Shown: positions 19,014 through 40,174 of the stretch, piece after piece | Numbering within the stretch: the stretch's first letter is position 1 | Layout of the letters: each line of letters opens with the position of its first letter | DNA from: Roseibium sp. | Lineage (GTDB): Bacteria; Pseudomonadota; Alphaproteobacteria; Rhizobiales; Stappiaceae | Assembly (NCBI GenBank): GCA_017643215.1 | Contig: JAEPNV010000001.1 | Location: 186,001 to 250,000 of the forward strand | Length of the DNA stretch: 64,000 bases | Reading direction: 5' to 3' | Position numbers and translations under genes: made by a program | The notes under the pieces: model-generated | The model's input: the letters and a program-made list of their open reading frames with translations, nothing else | Database searches by the model: none | Told to the model about the DNA's origin: nothing

Positions 19014-20579
19014 ATGAACAAGCCGATCCCGAATTCGCAATTGGACGCCGCCGCGCCGGTGGCGATCGAATTGCGGAACATCAACAAGCGGTTTGGACCG
19101 GTGCATGCCAACAAGGACATTGACCTTGTCGTCCGCAAGGGCTCGATCCACGGCATCATCGGCGAGAATGGCGCCGGCAAATCGACGCTCATGTCGATCC
19201 TCTACGGCTTTTACCATGCGGACGAGGGCGACATTCTGATTGACGGCCAGAAGGTCTCGATCGCCGATTCCAAAGCCGCGATCTCGCTCGGCATCGGCAT
19301 GGTGCACCAGCATTTCATGCTGGTCGACAACTTCTCGGTGCTGGAAAACGTCGTCCTTGGCGCGGAAGAAAGCGCCCGGCTGGCCGGTGGGCTGGACCGG
19401 GCCCGGACCGAACTCAAACGCCTGGAGGACGAGTATGAATTGCGGGTCGATCCGGATGCGCTCATTCAGGATCTGCCGGTCGGCCTGCAGCAGCGCGTGG
19501 AAATCCTCAAGGCGCTATTCCGGGGTGCCGATGTGCTGATCCTCGATGAGCCCACCGGCGTTTTGACGCCAGCCGAGGCCGATCACCTCTTCAAGATCCT
19601 GAACGTTTTGAAGGAGGAGGGCAAAACGGTTCTTCTGATCACCCACAAACTGCGGGAAATCATGGCCGTCACTGACACCGTCTCGGTCATGCGCCGCGGC
19701 GAGATGGTCGCCACCAAACACACGGCGGACACCAACATGTCGGAGCTGGCCGAACTGATGGTCGGCCGGAACGTGCTTCTCAACGTCGACAAGCAACCCG
19801 CGCGGCCGCGCGAAAAGGTGCTGGTCGTCGAGGGATTGAACGTCACCGATTCCCGGGGCGTCAGGGTGGTCAAGGACGTCTCCTTCGATGTGAAGGCCGG
19901 TGAGATCGTTGGTATTGCCGGCGTTTCCGGCAACGGCCAGACCGAGTTGATGGAGACGATCGCCGGCATTCGCCGCGCGACGAGCGGCACGCTTCAAATT
20001 GACGGCGAACGCATTGATCTGGCCAAGGCGGCGCCGAGCCCGGCCGAAATGCGGGACAAGAACCTTGCCCATGTGCCGGAGGACCGGCACCGGATGGGGC
20101 TCGTCACCAGTTTTGCCGAGTATGAGAACGCCATTCTCGGCTATCACAACGCGCCGGAATACTCCAAGGGTTGGCTGCTTGATATCGCCGCGATCAAGCA
20201 GACCGCGCAGGCCGAGATCGAAAAATACGACATCCGCCCGCCGGACCCCCTGTTGAAGACGGCGAATTTTTCTGGCGGCAACCAGCAGAAGATCGTTCTG
20301 GCGCGGGAAATGGAGCGCGACCCGACTGTCTTGCTCGTCGGCCAGCCGACGCGCGGGGTCGATATCGGAGCGATCGAATTCATCCACAAGCGGCTGATTG
20401 AAATGCGCGATGCCGGCAAGGGCATCCTGCTCGTCTCGGTCGAACTCGATGAAATCCGGTCTTTGGCCGATCGGATTCTGGTGATGTTCGATGGCAACGT
20501 CGTCGGCGAACGGTCCCCGGACGCAGACGAAAGCGAGCTCGGTCTTCTCATGGCCGGCGTGGACGGAGACGTGACATGA
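19014..20579 (+). CDS. ABC transporter ATP-binding protein, duplicated-domain nucleoside/sugar type
   Basis: A 521-aa ATPase with two fused nucleotide-binding domains, as in RbsA/YufO proteins. Domain 1 has Walker A GENGAGKST, Q-loop HQHFMLVDN, a divergent signature LPVGLQQRVEI and Walker B VLILDEPTGVL. Domain 2 has a degenerate P-loop GVSGNGQTEL, signature FSGGNQQKIVLAREM and LLVGQPTRGVDIG. Degeneration of one site is normal for the family. It overlaps the next gene by four bases (ATGA), and context assigns it to nucleoside import with the BMP proteins. Confidence 0.95.
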   Translation: MNKPIPNSQLDAAAPVAIELRNINKRFGPVHANKDIDLVVRKGSIHGIIGENGAGKSTLMSILYGFYHADEGDILIDGQKVSIADSKAAISLGIGMVHQHFMLVDNFSVLENVVLGAEESARLAGGLDRARTELKRLEDEYELRVDPDALIQDLPVGLQQRVEILKALFRGADVLILDEPTGVLTPAEADHLFKILNVLKEEGKTVLLITHKLREIMAVTDTVSVMRRGEMVATKHTADTNMSELAELMVGRNVLLNVDKQPARPREKVLVVEGLNVTDSRGVRVVKDVSFDVKAGEIVGIAGVSGNGQTELMETIAGIRRATSGTLQIDGERIDLAKAAPSPAEMRDKNLAHVPEDRHRMGLVTSFAEYENAILGYHNAPEYSKGWLLDIAAIKQTAQAEIEKYDIRPPDPLLKTANFSGGNQQKIVLAREMERDPTVLLVGQPTRGVDIGAIEFIHKRLIEMRDAGKGILLVSVELDEIRSLADRILVMFDGNVVGERSPDADESELGLLMAGVDGDVT

Positions 20580-21682
20580 GCGCTGGGCAGCTTCCGCGCT
20601 GGGTGGATTACGGCCTGATCCCGGTCCTCAATCTGGTCGCGGCGTTTCTGGTCTCCGGACTGGTTGTGATCCTGATCGGTGAGAGCCCGATCGAAGCCGT
20701 TCAGATCCTCTTGTGGGGATCGCTCGGCTTCGGCGAGGGGATCGGCTTCACCCTGTTCTACGCCACCAATTTCATCTTCACCGGCCTTGCGGTGGCGGTC
20801 GCCTTTCATGCCGGCCTTTTCAACATTGGCGGTGAGGGACAGGCCTATATTGGCGGGCTTGGTGTGGCCTGGGCCTGTCTCCTGCTGGATCACTATGTGC
20901 CCTGGTGGGTGACGATGCCGCTTGCGGTGGCGGGCGCTGCGCTGATGGGCGCGGCCTGGGCGTTCATTCCCGCCTGGCTGCAGGCAACCCGTGGCAGCCA
21001 CGTGGTGATCACCACGATCATGTTCAATTTCATCGCCGCCTCCCTCATGGTCTACCTGCTCGTCAATGTCATGAGCGAGCCGGGGTCCATGCAGCCTGAA
21101 ACCCGGACGTTCGAGGACGGCGGCCGGCTGCCGTTTCTGAACGACATGATGCCGTGGGTGGATTTCGGCACCGCGCCGGTGAATTTCTCCCTCATTCTTG
21201 CGATCCTCGCCTGTATCGCCGTGTGGCTGATCATCTGGCGCACGCGGCTGGGTTATGAGATCCGGTCCTTCGGCGCCAATGCCAGCGCTGCCGTTTACGC
21301 CGGGATCGACCCGGTGCGCACCATCATCATCACCATGCTGATTTCCGGCGCGCTCGCCGGCATGATGGCGATCAACGAGATCATGGGCTCGCAGCACCGG
21401 CTGCTTATCGAGTTCGTGACCGGCTACGGGTTTGTCGGCATCGCTGTTGCGCTGATGGGCCGGGCGCATCCAGTCGGCATTGTCCTGGCCGCGATCCTGT
21501 TCGGCATGCTCTACCAGGGCGGCGCGGAGCTGTCGTTCGAGATCCCGGCGATCACCCGGGACATGATTGTCGTCATCCAGGGCCTTGTGATCCTGTTCGC
21601 CGGTGCGCTGGAGCACATGTTCCGGCCGTTCCTGATCCAGGCGTTCGCTGTTGGCCGCGGCGCGGCGGCACAAGCCGGATAG
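20576..21682 (+). CDS. ABC transporter permease (nucleoside type, YufP-like)
   Basis: A 368-aa inner-membrane permease of the BPD_transp_2 family with about nine or ten hydrophobic segments. Typical motifs are FNIGGEGQAYIGGLG, AFIPAWLQATRGSHVVITT and RTIIITMLISGALAGMMAINE followed by GYGFVGIAVALMGRAHP. Translation is coupled to the ATPase gene through an ATGA overlap. It pairs with the next permease as the heterodimeric channel of a Bmp-type nucleoside importer. Confidence 0.94.
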   Translation: MSAGQLPRWVDYGLIPVLNLVAAFLVSGLVVILIGESPIEAVQILLWGSLGFGEGIGFTLFYATNFIFTGLAVAVAFHAGLFNIGGEGQAYIGGLGVAWACLLLDHYVPWWVTMPLAVAGAALMGAAWAFIPAWLQATRGSHVVITTIMFNFIAASLMVYLLVNVMSEPGSMQPETRTFEDGGRLPFLNDMMPWVDFGTAPVNFSLILAILACIAVWLIIWRTRLGYEIRSFGANASAAVYAGIDPVRTIIITMLISGALAGMMAINEIMGSQHRLLIEFVTGYGFVGIAVALMGRAHPVGIVLAAILFGMLYQGGAELSFEIPAITRDMIVVIQGLVILFAGALEHMFRPFLIQAFAVGRGAAAQAG

Positions 21683-21691
21683 GAGGGGGCC

Positions 21692-22660
21692 ATGTTTGAC
21701 ACGTTCATTCTGATACTGGACTCCACCGTCCGCCTGTCGACGCCGCTGTTGCTCGCCTGCCTGGCCGGTCTTTATTCGGAGCGGGCCGGTGTCGTGGATA
21801 TCGGCCTGGAGGGCAAGATGCTCGGCGCGGCCTTTGGTGCTGGGGCCGTCGGCTATCTGACCGGCAATGCCTGGGCCGGGCTCCTTGCCGGGATCGCCGT
21901 CTCCATCGGGTTGGCGCTCATTCACGGCTTTGCCTCGATCACCAATCGGGGCAACCAGATCGTCTCCGGCGTTGCGATCAATTTCCTCGCCGCCGGTTTG
22001 ACCGCACTATTAGGCCAGACCTGGTTCCGCCAGGGCGGCCGGACGCCGCCGCTGCCGGAAGGCGGCCGGTTCGAAAACATCGAGCTGCCCTTTGCAGAAG
22101 CGATGCGGGATGTGCCATTGATCGGGCAGATTTATTCGGAACTTTTGTCCGGACACAACATCCTCGTCTACATCGCGTTCGCGGCGGTGCCGATCACCTG
22201 GTGGGTCCTGTTCCGCACCCGCTTCGGCTTGCGGCTGCGGGCCGTCGGCGAGAACCCGGCCGCGGTCGATACCGCCGGGATCTCCGTCATCTGGCTGCGC
22301 TACCGGGCGGTGATCGTCTGCGGAATGCTCTGCGGTGTCGCGGGAAGCTACCTGTCGATCGCGCAATCCTCCGGGTTCATCACCAACATGACCGCCGGCA
22401 AGGGCTTTATCGCGCTGGCGGCTCTGATCTTCGCCAAATGGCAGCCGCTCAACGCGATGCTGGCCTGCCTTCTGTTCGGCTTTCTGGACGCGGTGGCGAT
22501 CCGTCTTCAGGGCCAGGAGCTGCCGGGCATTGGCGAAGTGCCGGTCCAGTTCTTCCAGGCGCTGCCCTACATCTTGACCGTGATCCTGCTCGCCGGGTTT
22601 ATCGGCAAGGCGATCCCGCCGAAAGCGGCCGGTGTTCCGTATACGAAGGAACGCACATGA
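21692..22660 (+). CDS. ABC transporter permease (nucleoside type, YufQ-like)
   Basis: A 322-aa second permease of the same family with the usual signatures LYSERAGVVDIGLEGKML, FASITNRGNQIVSGVAINF, RLRAVGENPAAVDTAGISV and TAGKGFIALAALIFAKW. It follows the first permease by nine bases with an AGGAGG site. Its stop overlaps the cdd start (ATGA), tying import directly to catabolism. Confidence 0.94.
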   Translation: MFDTFILILDSTVRLSTPLLLACLAGLYSERAGVVDIGLEGKMLGAAFGAGAVGYLTGNAWAGLLAGIAVSIGLALIHGFASITNRGNQIVSGVAINFLAAGLTALLGQTWFRQGGRTPPLPEGGRFENIELPFAEAMRDVPLIGQIYSELLSGHNILVYIAFAAVPITWWVLFRTRFGLRLRAVGENPAAVDTAGISVIWLRYRAVIVCGMLCGVAGSYLSIAQSSGFITNMTAGKGFIALAALIFAKWQPLNAMLACLLFGFLDAVAIRLQGQELPGIGEVPVQFFQALPYILTVILLAGFIGKAIPPKAAGVPYTKERT

Positions 22661-23052
22661 GCCGCGTCGATCAGCTCTTCGAGGCGGCCAAAGCCGCCCG
22701 CGCGCGCGCCTATGCGCCCTATTCAAACTTCAAGGTCGGCGCGGCGCTTCTGACCAAGGGCGGCAAGCTCATCACCGGCTGTAATGTCGAGAACGCCGCC
22801 TTTCCGGAGGGCGTGTGCGCCGAGGGCGGAGCGATCAGCGCTATGATCCTGGCCGGCGAAACGGAAATCGCCGAGGCGCTTGTGATCGGTGACGCCGCGT
22901 TGTGCACGCCCTGCGGTGGATGCCGCCAGAAACTGAAGGAGTTCGCCGGACCGGACGTTGTCGTCCACGTGGCCGATCTCAATGAGGTCAAGCGCAGCTT
23001 CACTGTGGCCGAATTGCTTCCGGCCGGGTTTGAATTGAACGAAAAGGACTGA
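22657..23052 (+). CDS. cdd: Cytidine deaminase
   Basis: A 131-aa homotetrameric-type cytidine deaminase that converts cytidine and deoxycytidine to the uridine forms. The zinc site is visible: Cys54 and Glu56 in GVCAEGGAI, and Cys86 and Cys89 in CTPCGGCRQ. NVENAAFPEG precedes it as in the family. Its ATG overlaps the permease stop. The product feeds DeoA (deoxyuridine, thymidine). Confidence 0.96.
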   Translation: MSRVDQLFEAAKAARARAYAPYSNFKVGAALLTKGGKLITGCNVENAAFPEGVCAEGGAISAMILAGETEIAEALVIGDAALCTPCGGCRQKLKEFAGPDVVVHVADLNEVKRSFTVAELLPAGFELNEKD

Positions 23053-23057
23053 CCACC

Positions 23058-23867
23058 ATGAGCGGTTATGGCCGTGAATGCGCGGACATTGTGCGCGCGG
23101 CCCGTCCGGGCAGCTACAAGATCGGCATGATCCTGGGCTCGGGCCTCGGATCCCTGGCCGAAGAGGTCGAGGACGCGGCCCGCATCCCGTATGCGCATTT
23201 GACCGAGTTTCCCATATCCACGGTGACCTCGCATTCCAGCGAGCTCGTCGCCGGCACGCTCGCGGGCGTGCCGGTCGTCATCCTGTCTGGGCGGGCGCAC
23301 TATTACGAAAGCGGCGATCCGGCGGTCATGCGGACCCCGGTCGAAACCTTGAAGGAGCTCGGCTGCGAGATCCTGCTGGCCACCAACGCGGCCGGATCCT
23401 TGCGCGAGGAAGTCGCGCCGGGCGATCCGATGATCATTTCCGATCATGTCAACGGGTCGGGAAAGAACCCGCTGATTGGCGAGGAGGACGAGGCCCGGTT
23501 TTTGGACATGAGCGCGGCCTATGATCCCGAATTGCGGGCGGTTCTGCACCGGGCGGCCGCCGAAACCGGCGATCCGGTGTCGGATGGCGTCTACATGTGG
23601 TTTTCCGGCCCCTCCTTTGAAACGCCGGCGGAGATCAAGATGGCACGGCTTTTGGGCGCGGATGCGGTCGGTATGTCGACCGTGCCGGAGGTCATCATGG
23701 CACGGTTCGTTGGACTGAAGGTCGCGGCCATGTCGATCATCACCAATTACGGCGCGGGCATGCAGGCCGAGGCGCTGTCGCACGACGAGACCAAGAGCGT
23801 CGCCAAGCAGGGGATGGACCGGATGAAACGGATCGTGCGTGCCTTCGTCAAGGAGGCCGGAAAATGA
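23058..23867 (+). CDS. punA: Purine nucleoside phosphorylase (trimeric PNP class)
   Basis: A 269-aa enzyme that splits purine nucleosides with phosphate into base plus (deoxy)ribose 1-phosphate. Family features are [15 protein letters not shown] (phosphate loop), [45 protein letters not shown] and [13 protein letters not shown]. This is the low-molecular-mass trimeric class, not the E. coli DeoD hexamer. It starts five bases after cdd and overlaps deoC by four bases. Confidence 0.95.
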
Positions 23868-24643
23868 ACGAGCTGTCACAAAAGGACCTGGCCAAGCGGG
23901 CGCTGAGTCTGGTCGATCTCACCAACTTGAACGACGGCTGCACGGCGGCCGATATCACCGCCTTGACGGCGCGCGCGGTCACCCCGCATGGCGCTGTCGC
24001 CGCCGTGTGCATCTGGCCGGAATTCGTCGCGCAGGCGGTCCGCGAGTTGAAAGGCACCGGCGTGAACGTCGCGACCGTCGTCAATTTCCCGGACGGCGGC
24101 ACGGAGACCGGCAAGGTTGTCGCGGAAACGGAACAAGCGATCGCCGATGGCGCGGACGAAATCGATCTGGTGATGCCCTACCGGGCCTTTGTCGAAGGGC
24201 GCAAGGGATTTGCGGAAGAGCAGATCATTCGAGTGCGGGATGTGATCCCCGAGCCGGGCAAATTGAAGGTTATTTTGGAGACAGGCGAGATCAAGGACCC
24301 GCTCCTGATCCATCTGGCGTCCGAAATTGCGATCGGCGCGGGCGCGGATTTCATCAAGACCTCAACGGGAAAAGTCGCGGTCAACGCCACGTTGGAAGCC
24401 GCCGAAATCATGCTGACCGCGATCGAGGAAGCGCGCCGAGATCACCGGGCCGAGGTCGGCTTCAAGCCGGCCGGCGGCATCAGGACGCTCGCCGATGCTG
24501 CCGCCTATCTGGCGCTGGCCGACCGGATCATGGGGCCGAACTGGGTCTCGGCCGCCACCTTCCGGTTCGGAGCGAGCGGACTGCTCGATGCCTTGATTGC
24601 CGAGATCGAGGGCACGGACGCGGCAGGGGGCGAGGGATATTGA
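23864..24643 (+). CDS. deoC: Deoxyribose-phosphate aldolase
   Basis: A 259-aa DeoC that cleaves 2-deoxyribose 5-phosphate to acetaldehyde and glyceraldehyde 3-phosphate. The Schiff-base lysine is Lys165 in FIKTSTGKV; the second active-site lysine lies in [27 protein letters not shown] near the N-terminus also fits the family. The ATGA overlap with punA couples their translation. Confidence 0.97.
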
Positions 24644-24645
24644 CC

Positions 24646-25962
24646 ATGCTGCCGCAGGAAATCATTCGTAAGAAGCGGGATGGCGAAACCTTAAGCCCGG
24701 ACGAGATCCGGTTTTTTGTCAAAGGCTTGGCTGATGAGAGCATCACGGAGGGCCAGGTCGCGGCCTTTGCCATGGCCGTGTTCTTCAAGGGATTGACCAT
24801 CGACGAGCGCGTGACCTTGACCCTTGGCATGCGCGACAGCGGCGACGTGCTGGACTGGTCGGAGATCAATGCGCCCGCCCTGGACAAGCATTCCACGGGC
24901 GGTGTCGGCGATAATGTCTCCTTGATGCTGGCGTCGGCGCTGGCCGCCTGCGGGGCGGCTGTGCCGATGATTTCAGGGCGGGGCCTGGGGCATACCGGCG
25001 GCACGCTCGATAAGTTCGACAGCATCCCCGGCTACCAGACTCAGCCGGACAATGCGCTTTTCAAAAAGGTGGTCAAGGAGATCGGCTGTGCCGTGATTGG
25101 CCAGACCGGCAATCTGGCGCCCGCCGACAAGCGGTTCTACGGCATTCGCGATGTCACCGCGACGGTGGAAAGCATTGATCTCATCACCGCCTCGATCCTG
25201 TCGAAAAAACTCGCCGCCGGACTGCAAGGGCTGGTGCTTGACGTCAAATGGGGCTCCGGCGCCTTCATGGCCGAACTCGACGATGCGCGGGCGCTGGCCA
25301 AAAGCCTCGTGAAGGTCGCGAACGGCGCTGGGTTGAAAACGACGGCGCTGATCACCGACATGAACGAGCCGCTGGCCTCGGCCGCCGGCAACGCGGTCGA
25401 AATGCAAAACGCCGTCGATTTTCTCAAAGGCACGGCTGTCGACAACCGGCTGTGGGACATCACGGTTGCCCAGGGCGGCGAGCTTTTGGCAAGCGGCGGT
25501 CTGGCCGCCGGCGCCAAGGCCGGCGCGGATCAAATGCGTGAGGCGTTCGAGAGCGGCCGCGCGGCGGAAACCTTCGCCAGGATGGTGGCCGCTCTCGGCG
25601 GGCCGGCCGATTTCATGGAAAAGGCCGAACTCTATCTCGCCAAGGCCCCGGTTCAGGCCCCGGTCTACGCCGATCATGAGGGCGTCGTGACCGGGATCGA
25701 CACACGGGCGATCGGCCTTGCGGTCGTTCAGCTCGGGGGTGGCCGGACTGCGGCGGACCAGGCCGTCGATCCAGCGGTCGGACTGACCGATCTGGCCGGC
25801 ATCGGCAACTCGGTCGACGCGGATGCGCCGCTGGCGATTGTGCATGCCCGATCGGAAGCTCAGGCGGAGGACGCAGCCGCAATGGTGCGGCAGGCGTACC
25901 GGGTGGGCGAGGCCGCGCATGTGCCTGATCATGCCGCGGTCGTCGAACGGATCGCGGTTTAA
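24646..25962 (+). CDS. deoA: Thymidine phosphorylase
   Basis: A 438-aa pyrimidine nucleoside phosphorylase releasing thymine or uracil and deoxyribose 1-phosphate. The family signature [16 protein letters not shown] begins at residue 81, followed by [20 protein letters not shown] and [14 protein letters not shown]. Length is normal. It begins two bases after the deoC stop and is the last gene before the MITE-like insertion, which now separates it from deoB. Confidence 0.97.
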
Positions 25963-25991
25963 CAACAAAAAACGGGCCAGTTGAAGGCCCG
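25963..25991 (-). terminator. hairpin with T tract on the minus strand, directly after deoA
   Basis: CGGGCC (25973-25978) and GGCCCG (25986-25991) form a 6-bp stem with a 7-base loop. The A-rich run at 25963-25972 gives TTTTTTGTTG on the minus strand, so the signal terminates minus-strand transcripts. On the plus strand no T run follows. The plus-strand half of a once bidirectional terminator may have been displaced by the adjacent repeat. Confidence 0.55.
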
Positions 25992-26003
25992 GTCCTGACA
26001 CTA

Positions 26004-26267
26004 GGGTCAGGACTCATTCATGTGATTGAAATGGCGCTGCAAACGGCAAAGAGATGCAAGGAGAAACGCGACAAGCGGGCTGGTGGCCCGGTTGAGCGGT
26101 TTGACACGGCAGATCGCAGCCGGTCGCACGTCCCTGCGGGATATGAGCAATTTGCCCCGCTACAGCGTCGCAAGCCCTTGAAAACCGGAAGGTTTCCTGC
26201 AGGCTTGCTTCTCGTATCGAAGCAAATTGCTTCATACCATTTCAACCAGATTAAGGGGTCCTGACCC
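26004..26267. mobile_element. MITE-like element with 31-bp imperfect terminal inverted repeats
   Basis: The outer ends 26004-26034 and 26237-26267 are inverted repeats matching at 26 of 31 positions; both begin GGGTCAGGAC and end TTGAAATGG. The 264-bp element encodes no transposase. Inside are further dyads, such as GAAGCAA-A-TTGCTTC near 26219-26233, and GCAAGCC paired with GGGCTTGC. It sits between deoA and deoB. No clear target duplication is seen. A shorter copy of the end word lies at 25991-25999 (GGTCCTGAC), and another at 10093-10104. Confidence 0.65.
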
Positions 26268-26294
26268 TTGGGCGGAAAAGAAAAGGACGGGCTC

Positions 26295-27515
26295 ATGCCA
26301 CGGGCAATTCTGTGCGTGTTGGACAGCTTCGGCATTGGCGGGGCGGCCGATGCGGCCCGGTTTGGGGATGCCGGGTCCGACACGCTGGGTCACATCGCCG
26401 AACACTGTGCGAGCGGCAAGGGCGACCGGGCCGGTCTGCGCGACGGGCCGTTGCGTCTTCCCAATATGGACCGTTTGGGCCTTGGCGCCGCGTCGAAGAA
26501 CTCCAATGGCAAGGCTGCGCCGGGCCTTGATTTTGCCGGCGCGCCGGAGGGCCTTTGGGGACACGCGGAGGAAGTCTCGAACGGCAAGGACACCCCGTCC
26601 GGACACTGGGAAATCGCCGGGGTTCCCGTGCGGTTCGACTGGGGCTATTTTCCCGAAGCCGTGCCGGCCTTTCCGGACGATCTGATCGCGGCGGTCAAGG
26701 ACAAGGGGGTCATTGGCGGCGTTCTCGGCAACAAACACGCCTCCGGCACCGTGATCATCGAAGAGCTCGGCGAGGAGCATATCCGCACCGGATGGCCGAT
26801 CTATTATACCTCCGCCGACAGCGTCATCCAGATCGCCGCCCACGAAGACCATTTCGGTTTGGAGCGGCTGTATGACCTTTGCGAGATCACGCGCGAGATC
26901 GCCGATCCCTACAATATCGGGCGGGTGATTGCCCGCCCGTTTGTCGGCGACAGTGCGGCAACGTTTCAACGGACGGCCAACCGGCGGGACTATTCGGTTC
27001 TGCCGCCCGAACCGACGCTGCTTGACCGGCTGACGGGAGCGGGCCGCACGGTTTACGGGATCGGCAAGATCTCCGACATCTTCGCCCATCAGGGCGTGTC
27101 GAAGGTGTTGAAGGGGGCCGGTAACGACCAGTTGTTCGACAAAACCCTGGAAGCGATGGAAAGCGCCGGCGATGGCGACCTGGTGTTCGCCAACTTCATC
27201 GACTTCGATTCCCTTTATGGCCACCGCCGGGACGTGCCGGGTTATGCGGCCGCGCTGGAGCAGTTTGACACCCGGCTGCCGGACATGATCTCAAGGCTGC
27301 GTGAAGGCGACCTTCTGATCCTGACGGCGGATCATGGCTGTGATCCGACCTGGAAAGGCTCCGATCATACGCGTGAGCATATCCCCATTTTGGGTGTCGG
27401 TCCGGGCGTTCCGGGACGGGCGATCGGCGCGCGCAAGACATTTGCCGATATCGGCGAAAGCGTCGCCGCGCATCTTCAAATCGCGCCCGGAGCACACGGC
27501 ACCAGTTTTCTTTGA
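26295..27515 (+). CDS. deoB: Phosphopentomutase
   Basis: A 406-aa metal-dependent mutase of the alkaline phosphatase superfamily that turns (deoxy)ribose 1-phosphate into the 5-phosphate. Metal ligand Asp10 is in [15 protein letters not shown]; the phosphorylated residue is Thr100 in [36 protein letters not shown] and [11 protein letters not shown] complete the site. The ATG at 26295 follows AAAGGA; an in-frame upstream TTG at 26268 overlaps the repeat end and is unlikely. A MITE-like element lies just upstream, so its promoter may differ from that of deoA. Confidence 0.97.
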
Positions 27516-27609
27516 CCGCGGCGATGGCAAGGGTGTTGCGCCTGCGGCCGTGACGTAGTCCATTTGACGGCACTTGGAATCTCACGACTCGGGCCACCGG
27601 ACACCTTTC

Positions 27610-28605
27610 ATGACCAAACACAGCACGGTGCCCAAGGCCGAACTGCATTGTCACATTGAAGGCGCAGCGCCGCCGTCGCTGGTTATGCGCCTCGCCGAGC
27701 GCTACCGGATCGATGTTTCGCCGGTGATCGACCGGAATGGCCGGTACATCTGGTCCGATTTCACCGAGTTCCTGCGGGCCTATGACCTGGCAAGTTCCGT
27801 CTTCCGCACACCGGCCGATTACGGCCTTCTAGCCGAAACCTATTTCCGGATGCTGGCCGCCGAGGGTGCCATCTACGGCGAAGTGTTCATATCCCCCGAT
27901 CACGCACAGTCGGCGGGTCTGTCCTACCGTTCCTATGTCGAAGGTCTTGCCGCCGGGATCGAGCGCGCCAAGATCGACACCGGGATCGAAGCCCGCATGA
28001 TCGCCGTTGGCGTCCGCCATTTTGGCGCCAAGTCGGTCGAGCGGGTGGTTCAGGAGGTGATCGCCAATCCGCATCCGCTGGTCACCGGATTTGGCCTGGC
28101 GGGAGATGAGCGGGAGGGTCATCCGGCGAATTTCGCCAGGGCCTTCCGCATGGCCGGTGAGGCCGGGCTTGGATTGACCGCCCATGCGGGTGAACTCGCG
28201 GGGCCGGAAAGTGTGCTTGCCGCGATCGAATTCTTGCGCGTCAAGCGGATCGGGCACGGCGTTCGGGCGATCGAGGACCAGGATCTGGTCCGCCGTCTGG
28301 CAGATGAGGAGATTGTCCTGGAAGTTTGCCCGGGATCGAACGTGGCGCTCGGGATCTATCCCGTCCTGCGCTTTCATCCGATCAATCTTCTGCGCCGGGC
28401 CGGCGTACGCGTGACGTTGAACTCCGATGACCCGCCCTTCTTCAACACCACGCTCGGCAAGGAATACACATCGCTCGCCAAGACCTTCGGCTGGAAGGTC
28501 AAGGACCAGCTGGCCTTGACCCGTACCGCGATCGATGCCGCCTTCTGTGATCCAGCGACCCGGAAACGTCTGATTGTCCGACTGGACAGCGCGGTGGTTC
28601 CGTGA
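27610..28605 (+). CDS. add: Adenosine deaminase
   Basis: A 331-aa zinc-dependent deaminase of adenosine/deoxyadenosine. It shows the HxH metal motif ELHCHIEGAAP (His13, His15), LTAHAGELAGPESV, RIGHGVRAIED, EVCPGSNVALGIYP and NSDDPPFFNT. An assignment to the adenine deaminase subgroup is possible for such proteins. The nucleoside-importer context favours adenosine. It lies 94 bases after deoB. Confidence 0.92.
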   Translation: MTKHSTVPKAELHCHIEGAAPPSLVMRLAERYRIDVSPVIDRNGRYIWSDFTEFLRAYDLASSVFRTPADYGLLAETYFRMLAAEGAIYGEVFISPDHAQSAGLSYRSYVEGLAAGIERAKIDTGIEARMIAVGVRHFGAKSVERVVQEVIANPHPLVTGFGLAGDEREGHPANFARAFRMAGEAGLGLTAHAGELAGPESVLAAIEFLRVKRIGHGVRAIEDQDLVRRLADEEIVLEVCPGSNVALGIYPVLRFHPINLLRRAGVRVTLNSDDPPFFNTTLGKEYTSLAKTFGWKVKDQLALTRTAIDAAFCDPATRKRLIVRLDSAVVP

Positions 28606-28641: not shown

Positions 28642-29886
28642 ATGTCCGCTGACACACCGTCATCAGAGATGCGCGATTTGTTTTCCGCCCGCGCGGCGCG
28701 CGGCGCAGCGCGGGCCATACTCGATAGCGCCATATCGGGTGATGTGGCAGGTCTGTCCGTCCATCCGGAAGCCATGGCGCGCGCGGCAGAATTGGCCGCC
28801 GATAGCATGACCAATGCGTACCCGGATCTTCAGATCCCGCCCTGCGGCTGCTGGCGCGATTTTGACATCGGTGATGTGCCGCGGTGGGATGTGTTGGCGC
28901 AAGCGCGTGGCTTTTCGTCCCCGGAAGACCTCTTGCAGGTCGCCGGTGACCTGGCGCTTTTGGGCGCGATCGCCGCCGTGCGTCCGCCGCGCGGCTGGCA
29001 CTTCGAAGACGGGCAGTCCGGCATGGATTTTGGCGGTGTCACCGGTCTCCGGCTCGCCGCGTTTTCAATGTTCCAAAGCGGCATGTTCTCCACCCGGCCC
29101 GCTGATCCGCTGCGCGTTGACGCCGATGCGCTGATCCGCCTGGAGGACAATGAAATCGCCGCCGGCTTCGGCGTTGCGGAGCAACAGGACGGGTCCTGGA
29201 TCGCGGAGATGACGCGCCACCTGCGCCGGTTCGGCGAAACAGTCGGCATGCGGCCTGACCTTTTCGAGCGCGGCGGCGATTTGCGGCCATCGGGCGTTGT
29301 CTTGAACCATCTGTTCGACCCGGGCGGCGCGCCGGTACCGCTAGAGACCGTGTTCGAAACGCTGGTGGATGCCTTTGCGCCGCTCTGGCCTGGCGGTGCG
29401 CAAAAGGGCGATGTCATTCTCGGAGATGTGTGGGCGCGGCGTGCGCCGCAAAGCCAGGCTTTGCCGGACGCGGTTCCCTTTCATTCAGCGCCTGCGGACA
29501 TGGCTTATGGCCTGATCGAGCCATTTGCCTGGGCGGGCCGCGACGTGGCGGATCTTGATGCCCTACCCGGTCCCTCGGACGCCCATCACGCCATGCTTTT
29601 CGTGTCCGCAGGTGTTGTTGAACTGACCGGCGCGGTGGGTGTCCAGCCGGATATCGACACGATGATCGCCCTGCGCGCAGTCACGTCCGCCTTGTCCCGG
29701 GACGTGGCGGATACTGTTCGGGTGAAGCTCGGCGTCGACGCAGCCACGATGCCGCTGCCCTGCATCATCGAGGCAGGAACCGCCCGGGCTGGCCGGGATC
29801 TCGCCCGGCAAAATCCCGAACCCGCTCAAAACATCTCGAAAATCCTGTTGGCGGGGTCTGTTTTTTGGCTGCCGTTCGGGGCATAG
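28642..29886 (+). CDS. DUF1688 protein, URC4/Urg3-like (uracil catabolism family)
   Basis: A 414-aa protein I recognise as DUF1688 from its run of family-like segments: MTNAYPDLQIPPCGCWRDFD, GVTGLRLAAFSMFQSG, FAPLWPGGAQKGDVILGDVW, and VPFHSAPADMAYGLIEPF near the C-terminus. The yeast homologue URC4 (fission yeast Urg3) is required for the URC route of uracil degradation, with a uracil phosphoribosyltransferase and the GTP-cyclohydrolase-II-like URC1. Here upp follows directly, which supports that role. URC1 is not in the window. Its biochemical activity is inference. Confidence 0.82.
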   Translation: MSADTPSSEMRDLFSARAARGAARAILDSAISGDVAGLSVHPEAMARAAELAADSMTNAYPDLQIPPCGCWRDFDIGDVPRWDVLAQARGFSSPEDLLQVAGDLALLGAIAAVRPPRGWHFEDGQSGMDFGGVTGLRLAAFSMFQSGMFSTRPADPLRVDADALIRLEDNEIAAGFGVAEQQDGSWIAEMTRHLRRFGETVGMRPDLFERGGDLRPSGVVLNHLFDPGGAPVPLETVFETLVDAFAPLWPGGAQKGDVILGDVWARRAPQSQALPDAVPFHSAPADMAYGLIEPFAWAGRDVADLDALPGPSDAHHAMLFVSAGVVELTGAVGVQPDIDTMIALRAVTSALSRDVADTVRVKLGVDAATMPLPCIIEAGTARAGRDLARQNPEPAQNISKILLAGSVFWLPFGA

Positions 29887-29963
29887 GTCATGAACCGCAC
29901 GCACCGTGCCCGTAACGATGTAACCCAGGCCCAAACGACCGGGCCCAACGGAAAGAGACAGCC

Positions 29964-30593
29964 ATGTCCGGAGCCAATGTCATCAGCCATCCGCTCGTTC
30001 AGCACAAGCTGACGATCATGCGCGACAAGGGAACTTCCACCCAAGGGTTCCGGCGTTTGCTGCGGGAGATCTCCACGCTGCTGTGTTATGAGGTCACCCG
30101 TGATCTCCCGTTGGTCCGGCAGACGATCGAAACGCCGCTTGCCGAAATGCAGGCCCCGACGCTGGCCGGCAAGAAACTGGTTTTTGCATCCGTACTTCGC
30201 GCTGGGAATGGCCTTTTGGAGGGCATGCTGGAGCTCGTGCCGTCCGCCCGGGTCGCGCATATCGGTCTTTACCGGGACCCGGAAACCCTCCACCCGGTGG
30301 AGTATTATTTCAAGGCGCCGGAAGATCTGAACGAGCGGCTTGTGATCGTGGTCGATCCGATGCTGGCAACGTCCAATTCGGCGATCGCCGCGGTTCAAAA
30401 GCTCAAGGAGCGGGGCGCCAACCATCTTCGGTTCCTCTGTCTTTTGGCCGCGCCGGAAGGTGTTGCCAAGTTCAACGAGGCCCATCCGGACGTGCCGATC
30501 TACACGGCCGCGATCGACGAGCGGCTGAATGAAAAGGGCTACATCGTGCCCGGGCTCGGCGATGCCGGAGACCGGATGTACGGAACGAAATAG
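29964..30593 (+). CDS. upp: Uracil phosphoribosyltransferase
   Basis: A 209-aa enzyme making UMP from uracil and PRPP. Family marks are [16 protein letters not shown] at the N-terminus, [13 protein letters not shown], the PRPP loop [16 protein letters not shown] (130-144) and [18 protein letters not shown] at the C-terminus. The PRPP loop reads LATSNSA where most Upp proteins have LATGGSA, a notable change at the phosphate-binding turn. It lies 77 bases after the URC4-like gene, so it could serve salvage, URC-type degradation, or both. Confidence 0.95.
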
Positions 30594-30623
30594 GCCGCGG
30601 GCATTCAGCGCAAGGGGCGTGTC

Positions 30624-31529
30624 ATGATCACGGTGTTCGGGTCGATCAATCTGGACCTGGTGGTGAGCGTGCCAAGGCTTCCGGGACCGGGCGAAACCGT
30701 CAGTGGACCCGATCACCAGAGTTTTGCCGGTGGCAAGGGTGCGAACCAGGCCTTGTCCGCCCGGCGCGCCGGCGCTGATGTCGCCATGGTCGGCGCGGTC
30801 GGCAATGATGCGTTCGCCGATCTCGCCCTTGCGAATTTGCGGCTGTCCGGGGTCGATCTGTCCGGTGTCCGCGCTCTGGATGGCGCGACCGGGCTTGCCT
30901 TGATCGGGGTCGAGGACAGCGGCGAAAATCAGATCATCGTGGCAAGCGGTGCCAATGCCCGGGTGGACGCGGAATGGCTGGACGGCCGCCTAACACCGGG
31001 CGCATGGCTCCTCGTGCAGGGCGAGGTTCGCGTAGATCAGATCGAAACGGCAATGACTGCCGCCCGCCGCGCCGGAACGAAGGTCTTTTTCAATCCCGCG
31101 CCGGTCCCGGGATCTAGCCTTAAAGCCTTGCTCGACCTCACCGACGTTCTTGTGGTCAACGAGGGTGAGGCGCGGGACGTGGCCGAGGCATTGGACCTGC
31201 CGGCAGACCCGGAGGCTTTCGCCGCGGCGTTCGCGGCCAAGGACCGGATCGCCGTCGTCACGCTCGGTGGGGCTGGTGCGGTTGCCTGCAGTAGGGAAAG
31301 GACAATCCGCTGCCGCCCGCCGGCCATCGACGTGGTTGATACGACCGGCGCAGGCGATGCGTTTTGCGGGGCTCTCGCCGCCGCGCTCGATGCGGGTCTC
31401 AATCTCGATCTGGGCGTGCGGCGTGCCGTTGCGGCCGGGGCACTTGCCTGCCAGGTGACCGGTGCGCAATCGAGCGCGCCGGACGCAAAGGCCATCTCCG
31501 ACATGGCCGGCAATGTCCGGATTGTGTGA
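30624..31529 (+). CDS. rbsK: Ribokinase
   Basis: A 301-aa PfkB-family sugar kinase phosphorylating ribose to ribose 5-phosphate. Features are FGSINLDLVVSVPRLPGPGE, the substrate loop FAGGKGANQALSARRAG, FFNPAP, VVNEGEA and the catalytic DTTGAGDAFCGAL (Asp245). It follows upp by 30 bases and probably closes the nucleoside block. Free ribose could arise from nucleoside hydrolysis or from a URC-type step. Confidence 0.95.
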   Translation: MITVFGSINLDLVVSVPRLPGPGETVSGPDHQSFAGGKGANQALSARRAGADVAMVGAVGNDAFADLALANLRLSGVDLSGVRALDGATGLALIGVEDSGENQIIVASGANARVDAEWLDGRLTPGAWLLVQGEVRVDQIETAMTAARRAGTKVFFNPAPVPGSSLKALLDLTDVLVVNEGEARDVAEALDLPADPEAFAAAFAAKDRIAVVTLGGAGAVACSRERTIRCRPPAIDVVDTTGAGDAFCGALAAALDAGLNLDLGVRRAVAAGALACQVTGAQSSAPDAKAISDMAGNVRIV

Positions 31530-37435: not shown

Positions 37436-38614
37436 CTAAAGAGCACGCAGAATCCTTGCCGTATGGCGTCGGATCATTTCCTCTTCATTGGTGGGAATGA
37501 CCATGACCTTGACCGTTGAGGGTCCGGACGAAATGTCTTGCTCTGCGGCCATGTTCTTTTCAGGGTCGATCGCAAGTCCAAGCCAATTCTGGTCCGCGCA
37601 GACCTTTTCGCGAACCATTGCCGAGTTTTCGCCAATACCACCGGTAAAGACCAGGGTGTCGATTCCGCCAAGAACGGCCGCCATGGCGCCGAGTTCGCGG
37701 CGGATCCGGAACACGAAATAGTCGATCGCGCGTTTTGCGTCCGGGTCGCCGCTCGATTGAAGCGTGCGCATGTCCTGGCTGATCCCCGACATCCCTTTCA
37801 GGCCGGATTGCGTGTAGAGAAGCGCCGTAACATCGTCCGCCGTCATGCCTTTGGCGGTCATGAGATAAAGCACGACGCCGGGATCGAGCTGCCCGCACCG
37901 CGTGCCCATAGGCAGTCCGTCAAGCGCTGTGAAACCCATGGTCGAGCCGATACTCTGCCCGTTCTTGATCGCGCACATGGATGCACCATTGCCAAGATGG
38001 GCAACGACCAGCCTTCCGTCATGCGCCCGCGGGTCGGCGGCTTCAAGGTGGCTTAAGATGTATTCATAGGACAATCCGTGGAAGCCGTAGCGGCGCACGC
38101 CCTCCTCGTAAAGCGCCCGGGGGAGCGCGAACGTGTCGTTCACCCACGGATGATGGCGGTGAAAGGCCGTGTCGAAGCAGGCGACTTGGACGGCGTCCGG
38201 AAACAGCGCTCGCGCACTCTCGATGCCCGCCAGATTGTGCGGTTGATGGAGCGGGGCAAGGGGGACGAGTTTTTCAAGGCGGGCGATAGCGGCCTGGTCG
38301 ATCGGGATGGGCGCGGCGTGGTCGACGCCGCCATGAACGACGCGGTGTCCGACCGCATCAACCGCGCGGCCATGTGTTCTGGACGTCAACATCGGCAGGA
38401 GCGCGGCCAGGGCGGTGGTGTGCGATTGTCCGTCCTCTGAACCGAGATCCCGATCAAACCGGTCCTTGTCCTGACTGGATTTAAGGCTGATGCGGGGCGC
38501 CGCGCCAAGGCCCGAGATTTGTCCGTCGACAATTGGATCTTGGCCGGCAAAAAGCGTGAATTTGATGGACGACGATCCTGAATTCAGGACCAGAATGGTC
38601 TGAGCGTCCGTCAT
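37436..38614 (-). CDS. ackA: Acetate kinase
   Basis: A 392-aa acetate kinase (acetyl phosphate + ADP to acetate + ATP, reversible). It has LVLNSGSSSIKF at the N-terminus, VGHRVVHGGVDHAAP, CFDTAFHRHHP, YGFHGLSYEYIL, VVAHLGNGASMCAI and LVFTGGIGENSAMVRE. Its ATG overlaps the stop of the upstream MaoC-Pta fusion (ATGA), giving a coupled two-step acetyl-CoA to acetate pathway. Confidence 0.97.
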   Translation of the reverse strand: MTDAQTILVLNSGSSSIKFTLFAGQDPIVDGQISGLGAAPRISLKSSQDKDRFDRDLGSEDGQSHTTALAALLPMLTSRTHGRAVDAVGHRVVHGGVDHAAPIPIDQAAIARLEKLVPLAPLHQPHNLAGIESARALFPDAVQVACFDTAFHRHHPWVNDTFALPRALYEEGVRRYGFHGLSYEYILSHLEAADPRAHDGRLVVAHLGNGASMCAIKNGQSIGSTMGFTALDGLPMGTRCGQLDPGVVLYLMTAKGMTADDVTALLYTQSGLKGMSGISQDMRTLQSSGDPDAKRAIDYFVFRIRRELGAMAAVLGGIDTLVFTGGIGENSAMVREKVCADQNWLGLAIDPEKNMAAEQDISSGPSTVKVMVIPTNEEEMIRRHTARILRAL

Positions 38615-40029
38615 GCGCCATCCTTGAGACTCGACAAAAGGCCCACCGGTTCGCCGTGTTCGAGCCAGTGGTTGTAAAGCAGGGCGAACGCGCAAGACGC
38701 AAGACGGGCCCGTCCGTCATCCGCCCGGCTTGTCAGCATCACCGGCGCCTTTGCGCCAACCACAAGACCCGCCGCTTCCGCGTGGGCGATGAAGGTGAGT
38801 TCCTTCGCCAGCATGTTTCCGGCTTCCAGATTGGGAACGACCAGCACCTGCGCATGGCCCGCGACAAGCGACGTGATGCCTTTTGTCCGCGCCGCTTGCA
38901 CATCGATCGCGTTGTCCATGGCCAGCGGACCGTCGACAATGCCGCCCTTGATCTGGTTGCGTTCCGCCATTTTGGACAGGATCGCGCCGTCCAGACTGGA
39001 CGGAATGGCGGGATTAACGGTTTCAATCGCCGACAGAATACCGACCTTCGGCGTTTCCAGACCGAGCGCCAGAGCGGCGTCGATGGCGTTTTGGGTGATA
39101 TCGACCTTTGTGGTGAGATCCGGCGAGATATTGATGGCCGCATCAGTGATCAGGACGGGGGTGTCCCGGCCGGGAATGTCCATGACGAAGACGTGGCTGA
39201 TCCGGCGTTTTGTCCGCAAGCCTCCATCGCGTTTGACGACGTGGCGCAGCAGATCGTCGGTATGAAGGTGACCCTTCATGACGGCCTGAACGCGGCCGTC
39301 ATGGACCATCTTCACAGCGCGTGCCGCTGCCTCGGATTCGTTCTCAATGTCGATCAGGTCGCATCCGGCAATATCAGTGCCCAACTCTTCCGCGGCTTTT
39401 TGGATCCGCCCGGCAGCTCCGATCAGGACCGGTTCGATCAAGCCCTCCCGAGCCGCAAGTATCGTTCCTTGCAGCGAATTCGGATCGTCGGGCGCGACCA
39501 CCGCCGTCGGCAGGGCCGGCTGTGACTTGGCCATCTGGATCAGACTGTTGAAGTGACGGTGCCGTTCCACAAGCAGGCCGGGCAAATCGGACGTGGCGTA
39601 CTCGATCGTCTCACGCGGCGCGTCCACGACGGCGACACCGTCCGCGACCTTCGTTCCGTCTTTTTTGACAACCGAAACACTCAGCTCGACCTGCCCATCC
39701 GGCTTTTTTTCGAGCACTTCGACCCGGACCGTGAGCGTGTCGCCGACCGCGACGCGGGTATGAAATTCAATGCTTTGCGCCCGGTAGGTTGTTCCGGGCC
39801 CCGGCAGGATGTTTCCCAGCACCGCGGAGACCAGTGCCCCGACCCACATGGAGGGTGCGACCGGCTTGTCGATTTTACCGTCACCCGTCCAGTCCGTGTC
39901 CGGCAGATGCAGCGGATTCAGATTCCCCGATGCATGGGCAAAAACCAGCAGGTCATTAGAGGAGCATGTGCGGATGATCTCGGCATGATCACCCACCACG
40001 ATCTGGTCATATGTCCGATTTGTCGCCAT
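38611..40029 (-). CDS. Bifunctional MaoC-like hydratase / phosphate acetyl(butyryl)transferase
   Basis: A 472-aa fusion. Residues about 1-150 form a MaoC-type hot-dog domain (LVFAHASGNLNPLHLP, PVAPSMWVGALVSAVLGN). Residues about 165-465 form a PTA/PTB domain (MKGHLHTDDLLRHVV, FVMDIPGRDTPVLITDAAIN, GPLAMDNAIDVQAARTKGI, VPNLEAGNMLAKELTF). This architecture is usually annotated as bifunctional enoyl-CoA hydratase/phosphate acetyltransferase in alphaproteobacteria. Coupling to ackA supports acyl-CoA to acyl phosphate conversion. The ATG at 40029 has GGGAG upstream. Whether it prefers acetyl- or butyryl-CoA cannot be read from sequence. Confidence 0.93.
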   Translation of the reverse strand: MATNRTYDQIVVGDHAEIIRTCSSNDLLVFAHASGNLNPLHLPDTDWTGDGKIDKPVAPSMWVGALVSAVLGNILPGPGTTYRAQSIEFHTRVAVGDTLTVRVEVLEKKPDGQVELSVSVVKKDGTKVADGVAVVDAPRETIEYATSDLPGLLVERHRHFNSLIQMAKSQPALPTAVVAPDDPNSLQGTILAAREGLIEPVLIGAAGRIQKAAEELGTDIAGCDLIDIENESEAAARAVKMVHDGRVQAVMKGHLHTDDLLRHVVKRDGGLRTKRRISHVFVMDIPGRDTPVLITDAAINISPDLTTKVDITQNAIDAALALGLETPKVGILSAIETVNPAIPSSLDGAILSKMAERNQIKGGIVDGPLAMDNAIDVQAARTKGITSLVAGHAQVLVVPNLEAGNMLAKELTFIAHAEAAGLVVGAKAPVMLTSRADDGRARLASCAFALLYNHWLEHGEPVGLLSSLKDGA

Positions 40030-40174
40030 ATCGTGCTCCCGGCGCCGTGCCAATCTGTCGATTCACCGCCGCATGGCGCCGCAGCATCGAAATGATGCGG
40101 AGACTAGCGCCGCTGTGCGACGGAACAAATACGGGTGAATTGTTATGCGCACTCAAACGTGGCCGCGCGCGGGC

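Follow-up and report, generated by a model that had tools for sequence, protein, structure and literature searches.

The gene at 28642..29886 (forward strand) of a 64,000-nucleotide stretch of Roseibium sp. DNA (contig JAEPNV010000001.1, positions 186,001 to 250,000; this whole stretch is called the window below) encodes a DUF1688/URC4-family protein of a divergent Stappiaceae type, termed class B, with a predicted fold like that of Qng1. We propose that the gene represents URC4 in a URC1-URC4-upp cassette inside a Stappiaceae nucleoside operon, that URC1 was lost in the window's lineage (as synteny with Pseudovibrio would suggest), and that DUF1688 persists there under weaker yet real purifying selection, with most canonical motif residues changed. 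For canonical URC4, the most likely reaction is hydrolysis of the N-glycosidic bond in ribosylurea or its 5'-phosphate, which would release urea and ribose (phosphate), and the likeliest role of the window protein would be that of an N-ribosyl hydrolase repurposed for another riboside of this operon. To this last proposal we assign slightly less than an even chance; we infer each of its parts, i.e., hydrolysis, loss of phosphate binding and the nature of the substrate.

The window protein matched PF07958 with 179.9 bits (E 9e-53; cut-off 25), its residues 13-392 covering positions 2-403 of the 420-position model, and no NCBIfam model matched at E 0.001. It resembles yeast URC4/urg3 (Lachancea, S. 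pombe), the partner of URC1 and uracil phosphoribosyltransferase, in that PF07958 covers nearly the full length. One study (PMC2174524) reports an S. pombe gene cluster, induced by uracil, of urg1 (a GTP cyclohydrolase II family gene), urg2 (uracil phosphoribosyltransferase-like) and urg3 (DUF1688), and another (PMC7530994) describes yeast URC4 as degrading ribosylurea to urea, in a pathway that contains uncharacterised steps. The first-pass annotation had read DUF1688, upp (29964..30593) and a kinase gene (30624..31529) as a bacterial URC uracil-degradation module. We found the three open frames side by side on the forward strand.

The view that a URC4-family gene next to upp signals a bacterial URC cassette proved sound, since the order URC1-URC4-upp is kept in the Alphaproteobacteria sampled. 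In a class-wide search of 385 genomes, 38 had a DUF1688 match, and loci from 30 were compared (two of them, L016 and L230, come from genomes that are also in the order sample described below). URC1 lay within 1.5 kb of DUF1688 at 29 of these loci, the exception being L219, and upp at all 30. The DUF1688 scores in this sample were all at least 414.9 bits, except in the window genome and for two matches cut by contig ends. The same trio occurs on annotated plasmids of Azospirillum brasilense Sp7, where a BMP-family transporter follows, and of Gordonia polyisoprenivorans (p174); on plasmids the family is already annotated as "URC4/urg3 family protein". As in these two cassettes, the window DUF1688 adjoins upp in the same order and on the same strand; unlike the bacterial cassette, however, the window pair has no URC1 and sits inside a deo-type nucleoside operon.

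The N-terminal domain of URC1 (PF12471) had no match in the window genome (G000), in which the GTP_cyclohydro2 domain had a single match of 103 bits. Genes of the reductive pathway were present: PreA scored 732.6 bits (cut-off 335) and is adjoined by a PreT-like gene whose top NCBIfam matches fall under their cut-offs, and dihydropyrimidinase scored 598 bits (cut-off 393) and lies beside a hydantoinase/carbamoylase-family amidase (TIGR01879, 386.5 bits; cut-off 204) and an omega-aminotransferase. Because URC1 has no match and these genes are present, uracil in the window genome probably goes through the reductive route, with enzyme functions as judged from family membership. At the level of gene families the genome thus combines the two features that the first-pass annotation had itself set against its proposal. 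An intact URC uracil-degradation module is ruled out here as exceedingly improbable: URC4 does adjoin upp in canonical cassette order, but the same genome has reductive pathway genes and no URC1 match, and its URC4 is divergent.

Absence of a URC1 match extends through most of the family. Among 61 family genomes, DUF1688 was found in 43, upp in 61 and PF12471 in 4, so that 57, including the window genome, were without a PF12471 match; PreA was above its cut-off in 44 and dihydropyrimidinase in 56. In all four URC1-bearing genomes, which belong to the genus Pseudovibrio, URC1 stands directly upstream of DUF1688, between add and DUF1688; in G270 the two frames share 11 bases, and at the three named loci the two matches share 8. 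An order sample of 249 genomes had DUF1688 in 61 and PF12471 in 54, and all 54 were within the 61. The seven genomes with DUF1688 and without PF12471 fell into two groups by DUF1688 score, i.e., 144-207 bits in the Stappiaceae (G000, G237 and G116) and 394-455 bits in G137, G188, G210 and G247. Ten Pseudovibrio-genus genomes (G251, G255, G263, G267, G273, G282, G288, G291, G296 and G298) were without both PF12471 and PreA above its cut-off; the six of them that were aligned retain a near-canonical DUF1688, a coincidence that is confounded by kinship.

Divergence of the protein was scored on an alignment of 34 canonical rows (30 from URC1-bearing genomes and four, L054-L057, from URC1-less order-sample genomes) with 37 of the 43 family rows, leaving out G254 and G258 (broken frames), G251, G255, G263 and G282. 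Canonical rows share 114 columns with a conservation of 94% or more; of these, the four family rows with URC1 kept a fraction of 0.95-0.96 and the URC1-less Pseudovibrio-genus rows G267, G273, G288, G291, G296 and G298 kept 0.90-0.93. Two other Pseudovibrio-genus rows kept 0.49 (G276) and 0.46 (G285), the Pannonibacter-genus rows 0.92, 0.79, 0.75, 0.51 and 0.51, G250 0.63, and the 19 Roseibium-genus rows 0.40-0.61 (window 0.47). Class B comprises the 24 rows keeping no more than 0.63 of the columns. Across the same family genomes, identity to the window was 77-96% for Upp and 29-45% for DUF1688. A profile search of the named-genome contigs with alignment A2 returned 31 loci, and a search of those contigs with the window protein alone returned no matches. 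The named relatives there are Roseibium/Labrenzia, Pannonibacter and Pseudovibrio, of which Roseibium and Pseudovibrio are placed in the Stappiaceae, order Hyphomicrobiales.

Column retention in Roseibium was two-humped, with 27 of the 114 columns kept in less than 10% of rows and 26 in at least 90%. With few or no exceptions, Roseibium rows lack R70, R190, K282, W286, Y314, R315, N316, G317, W344, W381 and R392; each of the 24 class B rows retains W71, R72, D103, W119, G147, F149, G198, R215, D262, E293, R345 and P371. Position 282 is Lys in 33 of 34 canonical rows and Ser in the window (codon 29485..29487), and the canonical motifs FHKLSQW and LTGLAEYRNGGLF were not found in the window protein, which has FHSAPAD and LPGPSDAHHAMLF. 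Other residues are specific to the class: D313 (codon 29578..29580 in the window) occurs in 22 of 24 class B rows, compared with Glu in 31 and Asp in 2 of the 34 canonical rows, and H316 in 21 of 24. A C-terminal extension starting WL (WLPFGA-like; 29866..29883 in the window) was present in 19/19 Roseibium-genus rows and 0/34 canonical rows. Compared with URC4/urg3, the window protein keeps 47% of the canonical conserved columns, has lost Lys 282 and the YRNGG motif, carries the WLPFGA tail, and belongs to a genome with reductive uracil genes and no URC1 match.

These losses might mean that, once URC1 was gone, the protein lost its catalytic residues and became a relic or pseudoenzyme, which is drifting or has only a binding or structural role. 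Pairwise dN/dS values (Nei-Gojobori, own script) for DUF1688 were 0.155 (G116/G253), 0.153 (G280/G289) and 0.257 (G297/G268), and 0.163, 0.220 and 0.211 in three close Roseibium pairs; in the first two pairs they exceed those of the other operon genes (0.02-0.11), as a relic would lead one to expect. Class B has also lost several tryptophans besides Lys 282 and YRNGG, residue 313 is non-acidic in four genomes, erosion is graded in the genus Pannonibacter (from 0.92 to 0.51), and frames are broken in G254 and G258, although the assembly may be at fault there, since splits also affect add in G254 and a number of the operon genes in G258. However, the frames are open in 19 of 19 Roseibium-genus rows, dN/dS in the closest pairs is far below 1, a core that includes W71, R72, D103, W119, D262, E293 and R345 is retained in every class B row, and D313, H316 and the C-terminal tail are features of the class. 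We regard a relic as doubtful, yet far from negligible; a neutral pseudogene, in particular, is not supported by the open frames and the low dN/dS of the closest pairs.

In a tree of the 71 rows, the 19 Roseibium rows grouped together (100/99). All 24 class B rows lay on one side of a branch that separates them from the other family rows (one change, 100/99, 100% of 200 bootstrap trees); the opposite side held the canonical rows along with the near-canonical ones. Because the class B branches are long, this single grouping may be an artefact. If it is true, class B would be one old type that occupies the same slot as class A within Pannonibacter and Pseudovibrio, which would imply exchange at the slot; if it is false, repeated acceleration following URC1 loss would be the explanation. 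Repeated origin is not shown by the present tree, which groups all 24 rows, though long branches may mislead. In the Pannonibacter pair G257/G265 (L154 and L129), dS was 0.14-0.16 for punA, deoA, add and upp and 1.36 for DUF1688, as if the latter had been exchanged.

We know of no enzyme mechanism for the URC4 reaction. By Foldseek, the predicted fold of the window protein matched Qng1 over about 305-327 residues at 11-21% identity (the VIA list is a re-examination of Foldseek's own matches only), and canonical bacterial URC4 has the same predicted fold. Matches to helix-hairpin-helix DNA glycosylases (AGOG, EndoIII and MutY) were far weaker, over about 190-230 residues. Qng1 (DUF2419) is a queuosine-5'-monophosphate N-ribosyl hydrolase. 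Among the residues mutated in its PDB entries, D231 falls on D313 of the window protein and K199 on S282, as placed by sequence alignment, not superposed coordinates. In this alignment the window protein has an acidic residue opposite D231; opposite K199, canonical URC4 retains a Lys that the window class has lost. The gene context in the window is nucleoside and uracil catabolism. Yeast URC4 is described as degrading ribosylurea, and the substrates on both sides are N-ribosides, so a Qng1-type hydrolase fits URC4; the predicted fold suggests that ribose is cleaved from nitrogen compounds by URC4 proteins. Papers naming DUF1688 made no mention of queuosine or DUF2419 in a search that left most subscription papers outside its reach.

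Having retained the core and the acidic residue without the lysine, the window protein may act on another substrate or be inactive. An unphosphorylated nucleoside is a reasonable guess for such a substrate, because the conserved basic residues R70, R190, K282, R315 and R392 are lost. Put together, DUF1688 could be a second Qng1-type branch in which the URC4 step is N-glycosidic hydrolysis, and the URC1-free Roseibium branch, with its rebuilt pocket, could be a new nucleoside hydrolase for a riboside that resists the deo phosphorylases; we advance this whole scheme tentatively, as rather more apt to fail than to hold. From a Qng1-type fold follows a cheap and concrete test of URC4, in which urea and ribose (phosphate) would be set free, and the fold also singles out candidate residues.

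Several observations weigh against a repurposed hydrolase of Qng1 type. The sequence link is weak, with profile-profile P values of 0.0089 (A1) and 0.57 (A3); the canonical profile A3 matched no PDB sequence up to E 10, and a Pfam scan of the window protein at E 0.001 gave PF07958 only, with no Qng1/DUF2419 match. The residue equivalences themselves depend on sequence alignment. None of the 24 class B rows has Lys 282, the residue placed opposite the mutated K199, and residue 313 is Asn in G286 (Roseibium genus) and G276 and Gly in the URC1-less, near-canonical G267 and G296; as it is not universally acidic, it may be dispensable. Loss did not fall preferentially on basic residues taken together (Mann-Whitney p 0.63), so that five chosen columns carry the phosphate argument. 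More distant pairs that include class B rows gave dN/dS of 0.26-0.67 at dS above 1.1, among them values of 0.43-0.67 at dS 1.15-1.3, where dS is likely saturated and the ratio unsure. Finally, nucleoside hydrolase PF01156 occurs in 25 of 61 family genomes, all 25 of which also bear DUF1688. That DUF1688 stands in for an IU nucleoside hydrolase is not supported, PF01156 being confined to three DUF1688-bearing genera.

Independent observations hint that URC4-type proteins can function where URC1 is absent. In the URC1-less Pseudovibrio, near-canonical URC4 is under strong constraint, with pairwise dN/dS of 0.011-0.064. In G210, G137 and G188, whose genomes have no PF12471 match, DUF1688 lies beside upp (together with rbsK in G210 and G137), and in G247 it follows genes for a ribose-type ABC transporter and a ribokinase-like protein. 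An alternative is that the original chemistry was kept, i.e., that the window protein hydrolyses ribosylurea (phosphate) derived from damaged pyrimidine nucleosides or from an enzyme that replaces URC1. The predicted fold, shared with canonical URC4, and the six near-canonical, strongly constrained Pseudovibrio-genus rows would fit, but the window class has lost the near-invariant K282, Y314, R315, N316, W286, R70 and R190, and we consider retention of this chemistry improbable. The Stappiaceae form a natural series (full cassette; URC1-less with URC4 near-unchanged; URC1-less with URC4 remodelled), which suggests that URC4-type proteins have a use when URC1 is missing and provides a clean comparison for finding it.

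Two loci from PF12471-less genomes have further genes beside DUF1688. The row L057:1427-9212 encodes a LacI-type regulator, a ribose-type ABC transporter, a phosphotriesterase-family protein, a GATase1_like protein, a ribokinase-like protein and DUF1688; DUF1688 may be the centre of an operon for the uptake of a sugar or riboside here. In another such genome, DUF1989 (PF09347; L056:8825-9685) lies within a nucleoside operon, between deoB and DUF1688 and convergent to the latter.

Upstream of DUF1688 in the window, all on the forward strand, are an ABC transporter ATPase with two permeases, presumably of nucleoside type (19014..22660; judged by translation, position and counterparts in Stappiaceae regions), the nucleoside catabolism genes cdd, punA, deoC, deoA and deoB of the same operon (22651..27515; family searches), and add, encoding adenosine deaminase (27601..28605; NF006848, 450.8 bits; cut-off 426), which ends 36 bp before DUF1688 starts. 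Downstream, upp matched TIGR01091 (273 bits; cut-off 208), and the kinase matched PF00294 (187.5 bits); since its top NCBIfam match, ribokinase TIGR02152, reached 254 bits, short of the cut-off of 299.65, it is termed ribokinase-like.

All 42 Stappiaceae regions compared have punA, deoC, deoA, deoB, add and upp; DUF1688 lies between add and upp in 31 and is absent from 11. The order add, DUF1688, upp is common to these 31, many of which have extra genes between add and DUF1688, and its recurrence argues that the arrangement is not chance. The kinase gene is present in all 11 regions without DUF1688 and in 19 of the 31 with it, i.e., missing from 12, which marks it as an old operon member and rules it out as a linked partner of DUF1688. 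Its position had been taken as a sign that a ribose intermediate is released and recaptured, an argument that this distribution defeats; the underlying idea that URC4 breaks a ribosyl bond draws support from the Qng1-like predicted fold.

Smaller variations were seen in these regions. Several regions of Roseibium and Pannonibacter (L052:10793-12178, L139:8553-9878 and others) carry, between add and DUF1688, an opposite-strand transporter-like gene whose translation resembles a major facilitator superfamily protein, and the DUF1688-less G249 has such a gene between add and upp. In G274 an insert of ~5 kb before upp (L121:10330-15370) includes a ParA/MipZ-type ATPase gene, and the rbsK-like gene of G265 (L129:11978-12879) matched in two overlapping pieces, which suggests a broken frame. 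Further along the window, 37436-40053 encodes, as judged by translation, an acetate kinase and a MaoC-like/phosphate acetyltransferase fusion; a gene resembling the latter, at L056:2341-3819, matched PF01515 and PF01575.
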